Below, one piece after another: positions 7,926-20,592 of a stretch of 64,000 nucleotides of DNA. The translations under genes and the position numbers were made by a program. Below the pieces are notes generated by a model that saw nothing but the letters and a program-made list of their open reading frames with translations, was not told the DNA's origin and ran no database searches. How positions within the stretch are numbered: position 1 is the stretch's first letter; each line of letters opens with the position of its first letter. Source of the stretch: Cytobacillus oceanisediminis (GTDB lineage Bacteria; Bacillota; Bacilli; Bacillales; Cytobacillaceae); NCBI RefSeq assembly GCF_022811925.1, contig NZ_CP065511.1, positions 5,085,001 to 5,149,000 of the forward strand, read 5' to 3'.

Positions 7926-10046
7926 TTACATGCCGCCAAATTGGTTCATGAGGAACATGGACTGCTCATTGGAACGCTGAATCGCTTTTTCCATGGCGGT
8001 GAATTGGCGCCAGTAGCGGTCTTCAACCTGCTTTAATTTATCTTCAAAGCTATCAATCCGCTTGCCTACATCATTCAGTTCCCTGCCGATGGTAAATTGC
8101 TGATTGGTTGAAAAGCTGTTTCCGGCTTTTGTCTTCAATTTGTCCATAGCAGCGTTTACTGTATCATAAAGCCTGTGGGCAATCCCTCTTTGCCCGTCTG
8201 TCTGTCCTTCCCCTCTAAAAAGATTCTCAACAGACACAGGATCATCTTCGATTGCCTTTTTCAGGGCAGCTTCATCAATTTCAAGCTTACCGCCTTCTAA
8301 ATAATTGCTTGTCGTTTTAATGCCGATACTCGCCAGCTGATTATAAAGCGGAGAAACAAGATCATTCGATACGGGCTGGTAAAAGTTCATCCGCATCCCC
8401 GATAAAACAGACTGAAGAGTAGAATCCTTGCGCAAGAGACCGCTTTTAGCTCTCTCTTCCCATTGCTCCTGCTGCTTGTCCGAAAGCTGCTCACGCTGTT
8501 CATCGGTTAATGGGGTATAGCTTCTATAGCGTTCTTCACCAGTTTTTTTCTGGATCTTATCAATCATTTCATTGTACTTATCCACAAATGCCTTAATATT
8601 ATCAAAAACCTTTGTGGAATCATTGCTGACATTGATGCTGACCGGCTGATCTTCAAATGTCTGCTTAAGAGTAAAGGTAACACCGTTAACTTCAAATGTG
8701 TTTGAGCTCCGATTGGTAGCCAATCCATTAATCACGAATTCAGCGTTTCTTCCTTCTTCTTTGACCGCAGCCCCTTTAAAGCGCAGAACATCATTCAGAA
8801 AGCTTCCGCTTGTAGTGATCTCAGCCCCGCCCTTATTAAAATCACCCGTCTCTGTGCGGGTCATCGTCATTTGGCCTGTAGCACTGTCAAAGAACATATT
8901 GACACCAGCACTTGAAGCATTGACTTTACTAATGACATTATTCAGAGACTCACTGCCTGAAATCAGGAAGGAATCATGACGATCTCCTTTAGAGGTTGAC
9001 GTATCGACTGAAAAAGCAGTGTATTTGTGGTCATACGCAATCTCCAGAGCCATCGTTGTGTCAGATCCATCTGCCGGTTTTTGCATATCCGAATTAAACG
9101 TGATTTTCCCTGTTTCGTAGTTAAGGGTGCCTACCACTTTATTGGCATCATCGAGTATTTCTCTTTCTCCATTCACGATATTGCCCATTGAAAAAGTTTT
9201 CTCAGTGGTCGTTCCAGACGTTGTTTCCTTTATCTTAATGCTTTTCACTTCGTTCAAGGCACCTTGTGCCAATTGAATGGAGGAAGTGCTGTTTGAAATA
9301 ACGTGTGAACCCGTGCGTTCAGTAGCCACATAATCAATCTTAATGACACTTCCCTTTGCAGGTTCCTTGCCGAATTGCAGTGTTCCATCTTCTTTTATTA
9401 AAACTTCATTCTCTTTTAAGGGACGGTTCGCCGCAGTCAATTCTGCCTCACTCAGCGCATTAAACCCTACTCCATTAACCTTTACACTCCAGGAGCTAAG
9501 TTCACTTAGATCCACCTTGGACATATCTCCGAAACTAATGGCAGCTGGATCGATCACATCAATATTTTTACTTAAAACAGCACCATTTTTCCAAGCACTA
9601 GCGACAGGGTTTCCAGTTGAATCTATATGATTGCCTTTATACATAAAACTGCTTTCCTGTGCATAAAGGCTTTTGCTTGGGTCGATGGACTTCCCATCTG
9701 CAGAAATACTGCCGCCGTTCACTCGAGTCTCAGCACTTGCCAGCTGTGTTACTTTTGAAATTGAGTAAGAAGACTGGCTTGCTGCTCCGCTTGCTGTGGC
9801 AGTTACCATCGCTTCATTTGAAGAAGTTGTCAGACGCGAGCGATAACGTGTAGTCAGCTTCATCTGTGTCAATTCACTTCTAAAGTCCAATAGCAAAGAA
9901 TTCATTGCACGGTAATCATCGCGCTGCCATTCTAATACTTGTTTCTTCTGCTTTAATTTATCAAGAGGCATCCGTTCTGCCTTCATTAGATCTGATACAA
10001 GCTGGTCAATATCCATCCCGCTCGCCAGACCTCCGATTCTAACCAA
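7926..10046 (-). CDS. fliD: Flagellar hook-associated protein 2 (filament cap) FliD
   Basis: 706 aa, TTG start with AAAGGAGGGG upstream. It forms the cap at the filament tip that folds incoming flagellin. The N-terminal domain (MVRIGGLASGMDIDQLVSDL, about 1-110) and C-terminal coiled domain (about 460-706, with IKAFVDKYNEMIDKIQKKTG) are standard. B. subtilis FliD is about 500 aa. The extra roughly 200 residues lie in the surface-exposed middle (about 115-370), a region known to vary between species. Adhesin-like or antigenic variation is possible. Confidence 0.95.
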   Translation of the reverse strand: MVRIGGLASGMDIDQLVSDLMKAERMPLDKLKQKKQVLEWQRDDYRAMNSLLLDFRSELTQMKLTTRYRSRLTTSSNEAMVTATASGAASQSSYSISKVTQLASAETRVNGGSISADGKSIDPSKSLYAQESSFMYKGNHIDSTGNPVASAWKNGAVLSKNIDVIDPAAISFGDMSKVDLSELSSWSVKVNGVGFNALSEAELTAANRPLKENEVLIKEDGTLQFGKEPAKGSVIKIDYVATERTGSHVISNSTSSIQLAQGALNEVKSIKIKETTSGTTTEKTFSMGNIVNGEREILDDANKVVGTLNYETGKITFNSDMQKPADGSDTTMALEIAYDHKYTAFSVDTSTSKGDRHDSFLISGSESLNNVISKVNASSAGVNMFFDSATGQMTMTRTETGDFNKGGAEITTSGSFLNDVLRFKGAAVKEEGRNAEFVINGLATNRSSNTFEVNGVTFTLKQTFEDQPVSINVSNDSTKVFDNIKAFVDKYNEMIDKIQKKTGEERYRSYTPLTDEQREQLSDKQQEQWEERAKSGLLRKDSTLQSVLSGMRMNFYQPVSNDLVSPLYNQLASIGIKTTSNYLEGGKLEIDEAALKKAIEDDPVSVENLFRGEGQTDGQRGIAHRLYDTVNAAMDKLKTKAGNSFSTNQQFTIGRELNDVGKRIDSFEDKLKQVEDRYWRQFTAMEKAIQRSNEQSMFLMNQFGGM

Positions 10047-11054: not shown

Positions 11055-11099
11055 TTAACGAAGAAGTTGTAATACTCCTTGTGGTTGTTGGTTCGCTTG
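11055..11099 (-). other. hag: Second flagellin C-terminal coding block (candidate 3' exon)
   Basis: 45 nt encoding [14 protein letters not shown] and a TAA stop, the canonical Bacillus flagellin C-terminus. It has no start codon or ribosome site. From CCACAAGG through the stop to TTAATTT (11052-11084) it is identical over 33 nt to the end of the hag frame (11427-11459). It begins directly after the modelled 3' end of the group I intron and is most simply read as its 3' exon. The alternative is the remnant of a lost second flagellin gene. Confidence 0.75.
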
Positions 11100-11474
11100 C
11101 TTTGCGACTGCACCTTTCAGTGACAGAATAGACTATATCTTCATCCATGTTTTTACATGGAGCTGGGCACTTCGAACAGCGTTTACTGTCCTACGAGATT
11201 CATAGTCATAGCTTTTGCCTTAGACCGTATCCTCTAGTCGTTGAACCTTCTCCAGAGTTTCCTCACAGGAGCTTAGCTGCTGATTATCCATTGTTACATC
11301 CTCATCATTTTCATACCGTCACGCATACCGTTTCCAGTTACGTTGTGGTTGATGAAGCTTTAGGAAGTTCCAGCAATTCACCCAGTTATCCTCTAGCTCG
11401 TTACCAAGCTAGACGCCCTTCGAATCAAATTAACGAAGAAGTTGTAATACTCCTTGTGGCATTTGATTTGATTG
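11100..11474 (-). ncRNA. Group I self-splicing intron in hag (ends modelled)
   Basis: The core is clear on the minus strand. P7 is GACTA (11239-11235) with TAGTC (11135-11131), embedded in the R and S elements GTTCAACGACTAGA and AAGATATAGTC. P3 pairs CTGGGTG (11385-11379) with TGCCCAG (11169-11163). P4 pairs TTGCTG (11376-11371) with CAGCAG (11282-11277). P2 is 11412-11393, P6 has a GAAA-capped hairpin (11271-11250), P7.2 is 11191-11174, P8 is 11160-11145, and P9 has a GAAA loop (11126-11108). The extra hairpin before P3' points to a phage-td-like IA subtype. No homing endonuclease is present. The ends are inferred: 5' after GCT (11475), 3' after AAAG (11100), with T before and G at the end as the class requires. 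P1 is the weak point: GCTC could pair with GGGC near 11416 by only 4 bp. Confidence 0.85.
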
Positions 11475-12563
11475 AGCCAACATTGCTTGTGATGCTTGTG
11501 CAAGAATAGAATTCTTAGTTTGTTCCATCATTTCTTTCGCCATGTCAACATCACGGATACGAGATTCCGCAGCAGTTAGGTTTTCTGAAGATGTACTTAA
11601 GTTATTAATTGTGTGCTCAAGACGGTTTTGGTATGCACCTAATTTTGAACGCTCGGCAGATACTTTACTAATTGCAGCTTTTGTGATATCCATCGCACTT
11701 CTAGCATCTGCATCAGTTGCAACACTGATTGCACCAGTATTTAAAGAACTTGCAGTTGTATCCATTTTTCCAATTTGAATACCTAAACGTTCGTCAGTAC
11801 TTGTATTAGCACCAATTTGAATGTTTACTGCTGTTTGAGCTCCTGTTACAATTTCACCAGCATTACCACCACCAGAAACTGCAGCAAGAACTCCAGCACG
11901 TGTTTGTGTTCCATTTAATGAAATTTTAACTCCTAATTGGTCAAAATTTAATGTTCCAGCAGTTCCATCTGCTAATTTTACTGTCTGTTGATTTCCAGAT
12001 GTGTCAGAAAGTACCCACTCATCAGCTGCAGTACCAGCAGCAATAGTAAAAGTTGTAGATGCCTTCGCACCACTGATATCAATAGCTGTAACACCATTAT
12101 TACCAATAGACATACCTGTATTTGCAGCATCTAATTGAACACCAAAACTACCATCAAGCAACTTTTTACCATTAAAATTTGTAGAGTTTGCAATACGGTC
12201 AATCTCACTGTTTAACTGATTGATTTCATCACTGATAGCAGTTCTATCTTCAGATTGTAGGTTTCCGTTTGCAGCTTGTGTAGCAAGTTCATTCATACGT
12301 TGAAGGATATCGTGTGTTTCATTTAAAGCACCTTCAGCCGTTTGAATAAGTGAGATTCCATCTTGAGCATTTGCAGATGCTCTGTCTAAACCACGAATTT
12401 GTCCACGCATTTTCTCAGAGATTGCAAGTCCAGCTGCATCATCTCCAGCACGATTAATACGAAGACCTGAAGATAATTTCTCCATTGATTTTGATTGAGC
12501 ACCTGAAGCACTATTCAACTGACGATAAGTATTCAACGCAGCAATATTATGATTAATTCTCAT
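11430..12563 (-). CDS. hag: Flagellin (unspliced reading)
   Basis: 377 aa filament subunit, exported by the flagellar type III system. The N-terminal D0/D1 helix ([37 protein letters not shown]) and C-terminal helix ([20 protein letters not shown]) are conserved, with a variable Thr/Ala-rich middle (about 165-290). Start ATG 12563 has AAGGAGGAAG 6 nt upstream. In the unspliced frame it ends [14 protein letters not shown] at 11430. If the modelled intron is removed, the frame continues from Ala (GCT, 11477-11475) into [14 protein letters not shown] and stops at 11055, giving the same length with two substitutions. SigD promoter upstream; CsrA sites in the leader. Confidence 0.96.
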
Positions 12564-12709: not shown

Positions 12710-12940
12710 TTATTTCTTTTTAAAAAAATTGCTCAGGCTTTCGATTGAAATTGCTTCTGTTTTAGTTGCACTGCTGTTTTCCTGCTGAATTGATAGGTAT
12801 ATTTCTTTTCTATGTATATCAACATTTTTTGGCGCGCTAATGCCTAGTTTTACTTGGTCACCTTCGATGGAAAGGATTGAGATTTCAATATCGTCACCAA
12901 TCATGATTGATTCTTTTAGTCTCCTAGTGAGTACAAGCAT
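12710..12940 (-). CDS. csrA: Carbon storage regulator CsrA (translational repressor of hag)
   Basis: 76 aa. [20 protein letters not shown] and [19 protein letters not shown] are the conserved RNA-binding beta strands. The protein dimerises and blocks the hag ribosome site until bound by FliW. The ATG overlaps the fliW stop by one base (TAATG), so the two are translationally coupled. The hag promoter begins only about 20 nt downstream of the csrA stop. Confidence 0.97.
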
Positions 12941-13380
12941 TATATCTCCCCCTGTTCCTGAGGTGTCATGATTTTATGCTTGGTCTGATAAGGTGTTTGA
13001 TTAAGTATGACTTGTTTGCCCAGCTTTTTTGTTTGGTTAATGACTAATGGTGCCTGCAAGTTAACAGTTGTTTCTTGGAATGGCTCACTTACTGTTAAAA
13101 TCGCAAAAGTTACCACATCTTTATTGGATTGGATCTCTAATTTTTCTAATGCCTCTTCTGGCAAATCAAACTCATACTGCGGAAAAAGAACAAATGGATC
13201 TGTCACGATAAATGCCACCTCAGTTGTTCTTACTGACTGGAGCACAAATAAGTCTGTCCCTTTAAGAGGAAGAACATAAAACTCCTTCTCCTCTAAAAAA
13301 CCCGGAATCCCAGATGGAAAATTAATAATGTCATCCTTAATTATTTCCTGCTCACCATGAAACTTTGTTTGGATATTCAT
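12940..13380 (-). CDS. fliW: FliW, flagellin-sensing antagonist of CsrA
   Basis: 146 aa, normal length. FliW binds either cytoplasmic flagellin or CsrA and couples hag translation to secretion. Conserved sequence: [35 protein letters not shown] and [22 protein letters not shown] 13380 has GAGGTG 5 nt upstream. FliW contacts the flagellin C-terminal region, so the hag isoforms could differ in this interaction. Confidence 0.96.
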
Positions 13381-17876: not shown

Positions 17877-20462
17877 TTATTCGAAGTATAGCTGGCTGCT
17901 GGCTGTTTCTATGAATCGGGATTCGGGAACAGAGGGGCTTTGCTCGAGCTGACTTTGCAGAATATCAAGCATCGCCGCCAATTCATCTCTCGGTCCCTCA
18001 TCGATAATAAATTGAAATCCATAATTAGTCAGAGCATCTGATATTTCATCTTTTCGGACAATCGTTCCTGTAAAGGAGAGAACCTCTCCTAAAAGCTTGG
18101 TTTCAATTAATAGAATGATGTCTTTCCTTACCGGAAGTTTCATCTTTGAAACAAATTTCACTCCGCCTGCACTCATATCTTCAATCAGGATTTTCGTGCT
18201 GCCCATTTTGACAGGCTTGCTGTTAAGCTCTAAGATGGTCATTTCCGCCTCCAGCGGATAGGGAAACTCGACTCGAACATACTTGCGCAAACCTTTGAAC
18301 ACATTGTCTTCTTTGATATTCTGCGGCTTCAGGCTGCCAATTAACAGTTTCTGCTCAAAGGTGGAAGGCGGAATTGGCTTGCTGAAAAGATACCCCTGTA
18401 TTTGGTCACACTCATTTTTTCTTAAGGAATAGAACTGTTCAAAGGTCTCCACGCCTTCTGCTACAACCTTCATATTCAGCCCATGGGCGAGCTGAATCAG
18501 ATTTGCTGTGATGATAGCATCTTCCGCATTAGTATCCATTGCCTGGATAAAGGTTTTATCGATCTTCAAAATATCGAATTTATACTTTTTCAACTGGGTG
18601 ATGGATGAATAGCCTGTCCCAAAGTCATCCAGCGCAATTTTCACGCCCAATTCTCCCAATTCTTTAAGCACTGCAATCACGTTATCGGAATAGTTAATTA
18701 GGGAAGATTCCGTCAATTCGATTTCAATCAGTGACGCATCAAGGTGATTCTCATCTAATGCTTTTTTTATCATGGAAACAAGACAACTTTTCAAGAAGCT
18801 CAACGGAGAGATGTTTACGGATATCGGAACAATCGATAAACCTCTTTCCCTCCAGGAATAAATCTGGCTGCATACTTTCCTGATCACGTATTCTCCTATA
18901 TTTATAATTAAACCAGTTTCCTCTGCCACTGGTATAAACTCCAGCGGTGAAACTCTGCCCCATTCCGGATGATTCCATCTTAATAAAGCTTCGGCACTTA
19001 CTATTTTGCCGGTCTTCGTATCAACTCTTGGCTGGTATTCAAGAAAAAACTCATCATTTTGAATGGCTTTTCTCATATCCTGTTCCAGGGTAAAAAGCTT
19101 ATAAGATTCAATATCCATAGAAGGATGGTAAACCTGAAATCTATTATTCCCTTTCTGCTTGGCATGGTATAGGGAAGATTCCGTATTTCTGACCAATTCA
19201 TCAGCTGTGCTCCCATTATCCGGATATAAACTAATGCCTATAGACGGGGTAATATTAAGCTCAAAGCTGTTGATATGGAATGGTTCAGAGAAAATTTGAT
19301 TAATGGAATCTGCTAATTGCGCAGGATCCTCCTTCTCCTGGATATATTCCATAATAACTGCGAATTGATCACCGGAAATTCTTGCTGAAAAACAGACTGA
19401 ATTTAGCTTCTCCTTAATTCTTTGTGAAACAAGCCTAAGAAGTTCATCTCCTGAAGAGTGTCCAAAGGTATCATTAATCTGCTTTAACCGCTCCAGATCA
19501 AAAAACAAGACAGCAATATTCTGTTGTTCATCGTCTTCAATAAGGCTCTGGAGCTTCTGATCAAAGTACCGGCGGTTCGGCAGATCGGTCAAATGATCAT
19601 AAAAAGCCATACGCCTCATTCTCTTTTCAAGCCATTTTTGTTCTGTTATATCTGTTACAAATCCATCAACCCGGAAAAGTTCGCCTCTTTCATTCAGATA
19701 TGGGATGCTATGATCATTAACCCATCTAATTTCACCGGATTTATGAACAATTCGATATTGATAGCGGATGCTGTTCCCATTCAAAATGTTCGCCCGCTTC
19801 GCTTCTACCTCCTGCAGATCATCCGGAAGGATCACATTGTTCCATAAATCGAAATCGGCAATAAATTCCTCGGCTGTATAGCCGAATATCCCCTCTACTC
19901 CCTTGGAAAAATGAAGAACTTTTCTTTCTGCCAGATCTGCGGAATAGACGCCTACATCAAGATTTTCATAAATCTGCCCAATTTTCCGCTCATTTTCGTA
20001 AAGCTGTTCTTCCATGCGCCGCTTTTCAGTTATATCCTGAATCGTTGCGATGATTTTAGGTGATCCATCTTCATCTGCAAAATAATCTGCCCGATGGTGA
20101 ATATACCGTTCTTCGCCATCCTGCCTGATCATCCTGCATACCAGGTCCACACTATCCTTTTCTTTGAGAAGCCTTTTAAACTGCTTTTCAAAGGCCGGGC
20201 GGTCATCCTGATGAAGGTAGCTCAAATACATTTGATAGTCTGGGAAAAAATCTTTTTGAGGCTTTAGGCCAAAAATCCGAAACATTTGATCTGACCAAAA
20301 CCCTTTATCGTTTTCCACATCGTACTCAAGGCTTCCAATATTGGCGATCATCTGAGCCTGGTTGAGGTTATTCTTAATCTTAGTCAATTCCAATTGCTGA
20401 CTGCTAGAATCAGCAATATCTTTAGTGGTTTTTTCACCATCCTGTGTATTAAATTCGTTCAC
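17877..20462 (-). CDS. PAS-PAS-GGDEF-EAL-PilZ cyclic-di-GMP protein
   Basis: 861 aa, soluble, from GTG 20462 (AAAGGATG upstream). Order: two PAS domains (about 35-145 and 155-270), GGDEF (about 285-440), EAL (about 455-700) and PilZ (about 720-835). The GGDEF signature reads SGDQF, so cyclase activity is doubtful. The EAL domain keeps EALLRW, ELTESS, DDFGTGYSS, LKIDKTFI and VAEGVET, so it is probably an active c-di-GMP phosphodiesterase. PilZ has RKYVR and DMSAGG for ligand binding. It sits alone between comFC and yvyF behind a c-di-GMP-I riboswitch and likely lowers c-di-GMP to favour swimming. An in-frame ATG at 20531 falls inside the riboswitch and is rejected. Confidence 0.93.
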   Translation of the reverse strand: MNEFNTQDGEKTTKDIADSSSQQLELTKIKNNLNQAQMIANIGSLEYDVENDKGFWSDQMFRIFGLKPQKDFFPDYQMYLSYLHQDDRPAFEKQFKRLLKEKDSVDLVCRMIRQDGEERYIHHRADYFADEDGSPKIIATIQDITEKRRMEEQLYENERKIGQIYENLDVGVYSADLAERKVLHFSKGVEGIFGYTAEEFIADFDLWNNVILPDDLQEVEAKRANILNGNSIRYQYRIVHKSGEIRWVNDHSIPYLNERGELFRVDGFVTDITEQKWLEKRMRRMAFYDHLTDLPNRRYFDQKLQSLIEDDEQQNIAVLFFDLERLKQINDTFGHSSGDELLRLVSQRIKEKLNSVCFSARISGDQFAVIMEYIQEKEDPAQLADSINQIFSEPFHINSFELNITPSIGISLYPDNGSTADELVRNTESSLYHAKQKGNNRFQVYHPSMDIESYKLFTLEQDMRKAIQNDEFFLEYQPRVDTKTGKIVSAEALLRWNHPEWGRVSPLEFIPVAEETGLIINIGEYVIRKVCSQIYSWRERGLSIVPISVNISPLSFLKSCLVSMIKKALDENHLDASLIEIELTESSLINYSDNVIAVLKELGELGVKIALDDFGTGYSSITQLKKYKFDILKIDKTFIQAMDTNAEDAIITANLIQLAHGLNMKVVAEGVETFEQFYSLRKNECDQIQGYLFSKPIPPSTFEQKLLIGSLKPQNIKEDNVFKGLRKYVRVEFPYPLEAEMTILELNSKPVKMGSTKILIEDMSAGGVKFVSKMKLPVRKDIILLIETKLLGEVLSFTGTIVRKDEISDALTNYGFQFIIDEGPRDELAAMLDILQSQLEQSPSVPESRFIETASSQLYFE

Positions 20463-20515
20463 TTCAAGACATCCTTTCCAATAAAAAAGGCAAACGAAAA
20501 TAGTTCTTCTTCTGT

Positions 20516-20592
20516 GCAGCCCGGCTGCCATGGCAGAAACCTGCTTTAGGCCCGCAGCTTTGCGTCCTTTACTTTCGTAAAATTTACCCTGG
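20516..20592 (-). ncRNA. Cyclic-di-GMP-I (GEMM) riboswitch
   Basis: Read on the minus strand, CCAGGGTAAA is followed by a hairpin TTTAC-GAAA-GTAAA with the GAAA tetraloop, the core GGACGCAAAGC (20567-20557), CGGGCCTAAA (20554-20545), and the closing CAGCCGGGCTGC. These are the conserved elements of the c-di-GMP-I aptamer in the right order. It ends 53 nt before the GTG of the PAS-GGDEF-EAL-PilZ gene. The leader then holds TTTGCCTTTTTT (20494-20483), which can pair with AAAGG and CAAA of the aptamer core and resembles a terminator arm. This would make ligand binding an ON signal (inference). Confidence 0.9.

Follow-up and report, generated by a model that had tools for sequence, protein, structure and literature searches.

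A predicted group I intron that opens with a second copy of the flagellin ending it interrupts, in hag genes of the Bacillales

Self-splicing introns are usually treated as parasites, tolerated for leaving the mRNA cleanly. The hag (flagellin) gene in a 64,000-nt stretch of the genome of Cytobacillus oceanisediminis (NZ_CP065511.1, positions 5,085,001 to 5,149,000; hereafter the window) raises the question of why such an intron should begin with a copy of the very piece of the gene that it severs. The intron interrupts hag (minus strand) 14 codons before the gene end, and its first 45 nt form a second in-frame copy of these last 14 codons plus stop; the coordinates of this arrangement, as given in the original prediction, proved exact when rechecked. 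The arrangement itself is real, and broader than first claimed.

Anatomy of the interrupted hag locus

The features of the locus are as follows.

11475..12563, minus strand: hag (flagellin) 5' exon, starting with ATG and bounded by the 5' splice site that follows GCT, from sequence reading
11100..11474, minus strand: group I intron, 375 nt (Rfam RF00028, 80.3 bits over 11448-11108)
11430..11474, minus strand: tail 1, the spare copy of 14 codons and a stop, which also supplies the 5' strand of P1 and its loop
11423..11430, minus strand: 3' strand of the P1 extension, paired with 11468-11461 in tail 1
11471-11470 with 11421-11420, minus strand: further UC/GA pair in the P1 extension
11415..11418, minus strand: internal guide sequence GGGC, partner of exon GCU and intron +1 C
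11093..11107, minus strand: hairpin UCGC-AAAG/CAA-GCGA, whose loop holds the 3' splice site (11100/11099)
11055..11099, minus strand: 3' exon, i.e. tail 2, 14 codons plus stop, read from the spliced mRNA
12710-12940: csrA, upstream of hag
12940-13380: fliW, beyond csrA
7926-10046: fliD, downstream of hag

The 5' exon (..GCAATGTTGGCT) ends at 11475, tail 1 starts at 11474 and is reachable only from the unspliced mRNA, and the 3' splice site follows AAAG at 11100; the spliced mRNA would join ..ATGTTGGCT to CAAGCGAAC... Recounting reproduced the reported lengths of the tails and their identity (42/48 nt, with the last 33 nt all identical), and no exact direct repeat longer than this 33-nt block was found in the 1.8-kb region, whereas the longest in 200 codon-block shuffles measured 14 nt. 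Both tails comprise 14 residues and a stop, so the spliced and unspliced products are predicted to be equal in length, as had been claimed. The unspliced ORF (5' exon plus tail 1, stop at 11430) encodes 377 residues and looks like a complete flagellin: the Pfam families Flagellin_N and Flagellin_C match it (search run with the sequence lacking the initial Met), the C-terminal domain being covered end to end. The unspliced mRNA thus appears, judging by sequence, to encode a complete flagellin isoform, while the window locus exhibits a single 5' site and a single downstream exon ending, and not several alternative splice products. According to the ORF list, no ORF of homing-endonuclease size is present on the intron's own strand besides the tail-1 reading. 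Elsewhere in the window, a c-di-GMP-I riboswitch (74 bits; 20598-20512, minus strand) overlaps the first bases of an ORF (17877-20531, minus strand) with PAS, GGDEF, EAL and PilZ domains.

The assignment to group I was borne out by the Rfam search, in which RF00028 matched full length (11448-11108, model positions 1-253 of 253) with 80.3 bits against a cut-off of 50. This is the sole intron above the family cut-off among the 4 RF00028 matches listed in the window's genome; the three weaker ones (L002-L004; 35, 30 and 24 bits) lie on a 240-kb contig (G000:C2), two of them near each other.

In the Rfam alignment P1 falls within tail 1, away from the 5' splice site of the original prediction (after GCT). 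The minimum-energy fold pairs exon GCU and intron C with GGGC, with a U-G wobble at 11475, and the helix continues through pairing of tail-1 codons 2-5 with the segment from the tail-1 stop to the guide. The exon codon GCT, the intron +1 C, the guide GGGCGT and the last intron base G are each found in 121/121 distinct introns among the matches listed (see below), while the same codon in 35 intron-free hag genes is GCT, GCG or GCA in 23, 9 and 3 cases, respectively. Because of this fold and this invariance, the site after GCT is better supported than the P1 placement of Rfam. Two alternative 5' sites, after AUGCC(U) and after CUUCUU within tail 1 (near Rfam's P1), were judged by eye; with either of them the spliced protein would keep a partial second tail. 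The former was rejected because the AUGCCU/GGGCGU pairing is not kept in the diverged tails of loci L018, L022 and L023, the latter (cleavage after CUUCU) because the frame would be lost in loci reading CTTCTGAGATAA, and both because the GCU/GGGC geometry is invariant and recurs with other letters at another hag intron, described below.

Empty sites agree with these boundaries: 16 intron-2-free hag ends (15 loci; the intron of the window is called intron 2 hereafter) run straight from MLA into QANQQPQ[G/A]VLQLLR, locus L053 provides a further intron-2-free hag with an exact empty site, and intron-free hag genes end as tail 2 does. Covariation in P1 was assessed on 88 unique P1 regions from 90 parsed loci of the pattern scan (see below). 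The mean helix energy was -6.13 kcal/mol with the own partner and -4.42 (sd 0.17) with swapped partners (0/5000 permutations), and -2.54 kcal/mol when tail 2 was substituted for tail 1 as a control. The signal is clear on average and not case by case, since 32% of diverged foreign partners pair with tail 1 as well as its own partner or better; compensatory changes are plain in some diverged loci (GCGAATA/TATTCGC, CACAACA/TGTTGTG). At the 3' site, the inner three pairs of the hairpin covary, being kept, in two alternative forms, in 120/121 introns among the matches listed; in the pattern scan the exon codon belonging to this hairpin was restricted to GCG or GCC, and the pairs are kept also in 38/38 introns of the order sample, which carries no such restriction. 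With a U-G pair in P1 at the 5' splice site and a terminal G before the 3' exon, the element is by its anatomy well supported as a group I intron with predicted catalysis, and both originally proposed splice sites stand on the fold, the invariant positions and the empty sites.

Distribution among the Bacillales

Three samples of Bacillales were analyzed. The relatives sample (101 genomes, the window's own included) was searched with a 421-base query that holds tail 1 and is therefore biased towards it; 72/101 genomes gave some match, 17 matched the full 421 bases and hence both tails, and another 3 matched most of the query. In the window's own genus the full match was found in 6/36 genomes. 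The pattern scan of named genomes was not selected on tail 1, though its pattern fixes most of the first codons of tail 2, and returned at least 118 stretches, of which 90 were parsed. The 28 unparsed ones comprise 13 chance matches that show no intron (in two cases truncated by a contig end), 7 whose contig stops short of the 5' site, and 8 parser failures, namely the orphan pieces L030 and L053 (see below) and six loci in which the tail is intact by eye (L028, L060, L094, L096, L106 and L121). In the order sample 136/299 genomes had an RF00028 match at E<=1e-5; the 149 listed matches, for which neither tail was used in selection, were analyzed with the other samples and also alone. The classifier assigned 36 of them to hag intron 2, 52 to hag intron 1 and 61 to other sites, some intron-2 rows being classed as other where a short reverse frame won.

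Pooling yielded 168 3' ends and 154 loci with a 5' site, or 121 distinct introns after merging identical ones. The 14 3' ends without a 5' site represent 7 contig ends, 2 orphans (L030, L231), 1 misreading (L040) and 4 loci that the regular expression missed although their tails are intact (L064, L111, L115, L306). The search of related genomes for a duplicated tail, suggested with the original prediction, found exactly 14 codons plus stop in 120/121 distinct introns read from both ends (among the matches listed: pattern scan 92/92, order 38/39, relatives 19/20). The exception is a single intron found in both the order and relatives samples (L021 = L197), with 23 codons of another sequence in this place; it has lost the tail, and so the spare tail is not indispensable. 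Intact spare tails occur, among the matches listed, in Heyndrickxia, Geobacillus, Parageobacillus, Anoxybacillus, Sporosarcina, Planococcus, Fictibacillus, Oceanobacillus, Peribacillus, Neobacillus, Metabacillus, Rossellomorea, Sutcliffiella and Brevibacillus. From these sequence comparisons the arrangement is judged widespread and conserved, and not a quirk of one genome.

Orphan 3' intron pieces followed by a tail-2-like ending, with no intact hag 5' exon, were seen in L030 and L231 (near 2105) and in L311 (near 756); a further orphan piece, in L053 (near 6643), lies beside an intron-2-free hag. Locus L310 has no readable hag end.

Evolution of the two tails and the competing explanations

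All 111 distinct tail-1 sequences among the matches listed share residues 9-13 (VLQLL) and the stop, encoded by varied codons; TAA, TAG and TGA are all used as stops. On a minimum spanning tree, which was used here in place of a codon model, codons 7-15 of tail 1 accumulated 157 synonymous and 35 non-synonymous changes. The resulting ratio of non-synonymous to synonymous changes per site over these codons is 0.075 for tail 1 and 0.085 for tail 2 (pooled, matches listed), or 0.064 and 0.166 in the order sample alone. Codons 1-6 of tail 1 are looser (0.25 pooled, 0.224 in the order sample); the low ratio of tail 2 over codons 1-6 is partly built in, because the scan pattern fixes its first codons. 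Both tails thus look to be under purifying selection while evolving separately.

One way to avoid this conclusion would be to suppose that tail 1 is kept only as RNA, as P1 and its loop, or through copying from tail 2, its coding capacity being incidental. Tail 1 does fold into P1 in 22/22 diverged examples chosen for display. Moreover, the tails of the window, identical over their last 33 nt, are the most similar of 120 (39/45 nt, against a median of 32/45), and local conversion may have occurred here. Against this idea, the amino acids are kept while the codons change: besides the three stops, Arg14 is encoded by AGA in tail 1 and by CGT in tail 2 in 64/120 introns. Codon identity between tail 1 and tail 2 is the same within genomes (0.493) as between them (0.498), and 3653/5000 permutations reach the own-genome value, which leaves gene conversion unsupported as the overall source of conservation and argues that the tails are not conserved by concerted evolution. 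Only one of 121 introns has a decayed tail. We regard this explanation as highly improbable. The original term "spare copy" is apt, but the near-identity seen in the window is atypical; the copy is old and evolves separately. Lineage-specific changes of the ending usually hit both tails (last residue in tail 1/tail 2: R/R 109, Q/Q 5, G/G 3, K/R 2, Q/R 1; residue 8: G/G 109, A/A 7, S/S 3, A/G 1), though not all differences track, as the K/R, Q/R and A/G pairs indicate.

Alternatively, splicing may have been lost, with the flagellin ending in tail 1 and the remainder of the intron persisting as a relic in the 3' untranslated region. ORF calling of the kind used in annotation indeed yields a complete flagellin with no need of splicing, and the orphan pieces of L030, L231 and L311 exist with no usable 5' exon. 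Yet the coding sequence of tail 2 is maintained at the low ratio given above (codons 7-15), the core matches Rfam end to end, and the guide, the last intron G and the 3' hairpin are kept in 121, 121 and 120 of 121 introns, all of which makes a loss of splicing very unlikely, if slightly less so than the explanation based on RNA or copying.

The original prediction offered two suggestions for the role of the duplication, namely that it frees flagellin synthesis from splicing efficiency or that it sets the ratio of two C-terminal isoforms. According to the latter, the two C-termini would differ in chaperone, FliW or filament behaviour, and conditions altering splicing would tune their ratio. Residues 2 and 5 do differ between the tails (S in 90/111 distinct tail-1 sequences versus A in 65/66 of tail 2; M in 65/111 versus Q in 64/66), and temperature-dependent splicing has been reported for hag introns (PMC4853749, in its accessible part). 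On the other hand, the residues that distinguish the isoforms lie in the least constrained part of tail 1, codons 1-6, and 21/111 tail-1 sequences share A at residue 2 with tail 2. An isoform switch hence seems unlikely, albeit not to the degree of the two preceding explanations. The former suggestion is the better supported one, since the conservation of tail 1 concerns mainly the part that it has in common with tail 2; it is the looseness of codons 1-6 that leads us to favor a spare ending over a specific second isoform.

We therefore propose, with a probability of roughly 0.78, that the intron carries a working replacement for the gene piece it severs, so that full-length flagellin would be made whether or not the message is spliced. 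Where translation reaches the 5' splice site ahead of intron transcription, folding and removal, the ribosome would read into P1, add tail 1 and stop, releasing a full-length flagellin, whereas on the spliced message ribosomes would add tail 2 instead. Tail 1 would serve a dual use: its codons would specify a C-terminus, and in the intervals between ribosomes it would form the P1 helix, by which the 5' splice site is presented. The insertion would thereby come at almost no cost to a gene that is expressed at a high level. Tail 1 would be expected to drift were splicing always complete before translation, and tail 2 to decay were the intron never spliced; as neither tail has decayed, the simplest account, and our best reading of these sequences, is that both messages are translated, each giving full-length flagellin. 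Splicing in this strain, production of both proteins, the timing of ribosomes and the benefit are what we infer from these comparisons. One published observation speaks against the spare ending: temperature-dependent splicing in a thermophile would be unexpected if the only intron there had a working spare tail (PMC4853749, in its accessible part).

Endings of other hag and bacterial introns

Hayakawa and Ishizuka (2009, 2012) reportedly described group I introns in flagellin genes of thermophilic Bacillus/Geobacillus. Introns of this kind in hag of thermophilic Bacillus also figure in a review (PMC3984707), and a group IA2 intron of a thermophile flagellin gene is described, with citation of the 2012 paper, as having temperature-dependent activity that promotes motility when hot, the accessible text not stating which intron it is (PMC4853749). 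These are likewise group I ribozymes in hag, and the introns analyzed here at the site of the window's intron include those of Geobacillus, Parageobacillus and Anoxybacillus; the accessible portions of both papers mention neither a spare exon ending nor a tag-like one (PMC3984707, PMC4853749). In bacteria and phages, group I introns commonly carry an in-frame stop shortly after their start, explained as a guard against ribosomes entering the intron (PMC3984707, PMC3073962). Translation coming from the upstream exon terminates there near the 5' splice site, as it would in hag; the hag introns differ in that the codons before the stop encode a conserved, host-like protein ending. In Clostridium tetani, the group II intron C.te.I1 in a surface-layer protein gene resembles the hag intron in that the unspliced mRNA (the majority of the RNA) and the spliced mRNAs encode different C-termini of a surface protein, five isoforms altogether; it differs in having four alternative downstream exons and distinct isoforms, whereas hag has one group I intron that repeats the exon ending it interrupts (PMC3919590, accessible part). 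An account of an intron-borne spare exon ending or degradation tag was not found in our searches of open-licence papers.

A second hag group I intron (intron 1) occurs between D and MAKEMM, 23 codons upstream (e.g. in L006, L013 and L317). It is present in 54/120 assessable distinct intron-2 loci among the matches listed and absent from 66, including that of the window. Parsing succeeded for 96 loci (84 distinct) and failed for 9; the endings YASAA (2) and YASVA (1) fall outside the parsed list. The in-frame codons of this sister intron read YALAA followed by a stop in 57/84 distinct introns, and 66/84 end in LAA or LAAA, the C-terminus (or its close variant) typical of an ssrA-like degron; 78/84 end in AA and the other 6 in VA or AV. 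In 8/84 the reading is one codon longer (YDLAAA, YDLIAA, YDLAVA, YVLAAA), and its end is again AA or VA. The P1 geometry is repeated with other letters, GAU and the intron's first U facing AGUC, and the exon codon is GAT in 84/84 introns, compared with 37 GAT and 37 GAC in intron-free genes.

The tmRNA tag of the window's genome is GKTQNNFALAA, and the tags of 13 genomes end in FALAA, LAVAA, LALAA, FAFAA, LAFAA, FALAAA or YSLAAA; the 12 genomes besides the window's were picked mostly for unusual intron-1 endings and not at random. ARAGORN called the tmRNA in 5/12 of them, while plain translation read the tag in 12/12. One genome (G252) combines the tag ending YSLAAA with the intron-1 ending YDLIAA. 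Seven tmRNA loci uncalled by ARAGORN (L335-L341; Rfam E 1e-62 or better) each have a tag-like reading. The sister-intron ending and the tmRNA (ssrA) degradation tag are alike in their LAA/AA ends; the former differs in being encoded by the intron and translated in line, with a putative role in degradation. An unspliced message of this intron would lack the 37 C-terminal residues of flagellin, a truncation that a spare tail could not mend but for which a destruction tag is a sensible ending. The codons of the sister intron are likely to be under coding selection, though this is less firmly shown than for tail 1 because P1 also constrains them.

A third hag insertion site, after NAQDG, harbors group I introns of different look (L328, about 844-1260, and L329, minus strand, about 995-1400), the endings of these two loci being KREMPL and RLEMPL, each followed by a stop. 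Further introns of the order sample reside in genes that, from the translated exon, we take to be ribonucleotide-reductase-like and thymidylate-synthase-like, and their endings contrast with those in hag. At the first of these sites the endings of 26 introns range from nothing to GKSA, GKVA or longer, with small-residue endings GKSA in 4, GKVA in 2, GKAA in 1 and GRVA in 1. A second ribonucleotide-reductase-like site has RKNVA in 2, RKKVA in 1 and RKDAA in 1 of 5 introns (L195, L227, L230 and L277 are examples of such genes). At the thymidylate-synthase-like site the stop follows directly after the exon in 7/7 introns.

It appears reasonably likely that the endings of the hag introns fit their position, with a replacement tail near the gene end, a tmRNA-like destruction tag 23 codons upstream, and P1 built from the same nucleotides in both. 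If true, each unspliced message would give either good flagellin or one marked for removal. The intron of the window would escape gene annotation, because the unspliced ORF resembles a complete flagellin. Across many genera, the first codons of these introns look as if selection had acted on how good a protein the unspliced message yields, which suggests how introns persist in highly translated bacterial genes, where ribosomes may arrive before the intron has folded. Together with the sister intron, this yields a testable rule: finish the protein if possible, otherwise tag it for destruction.
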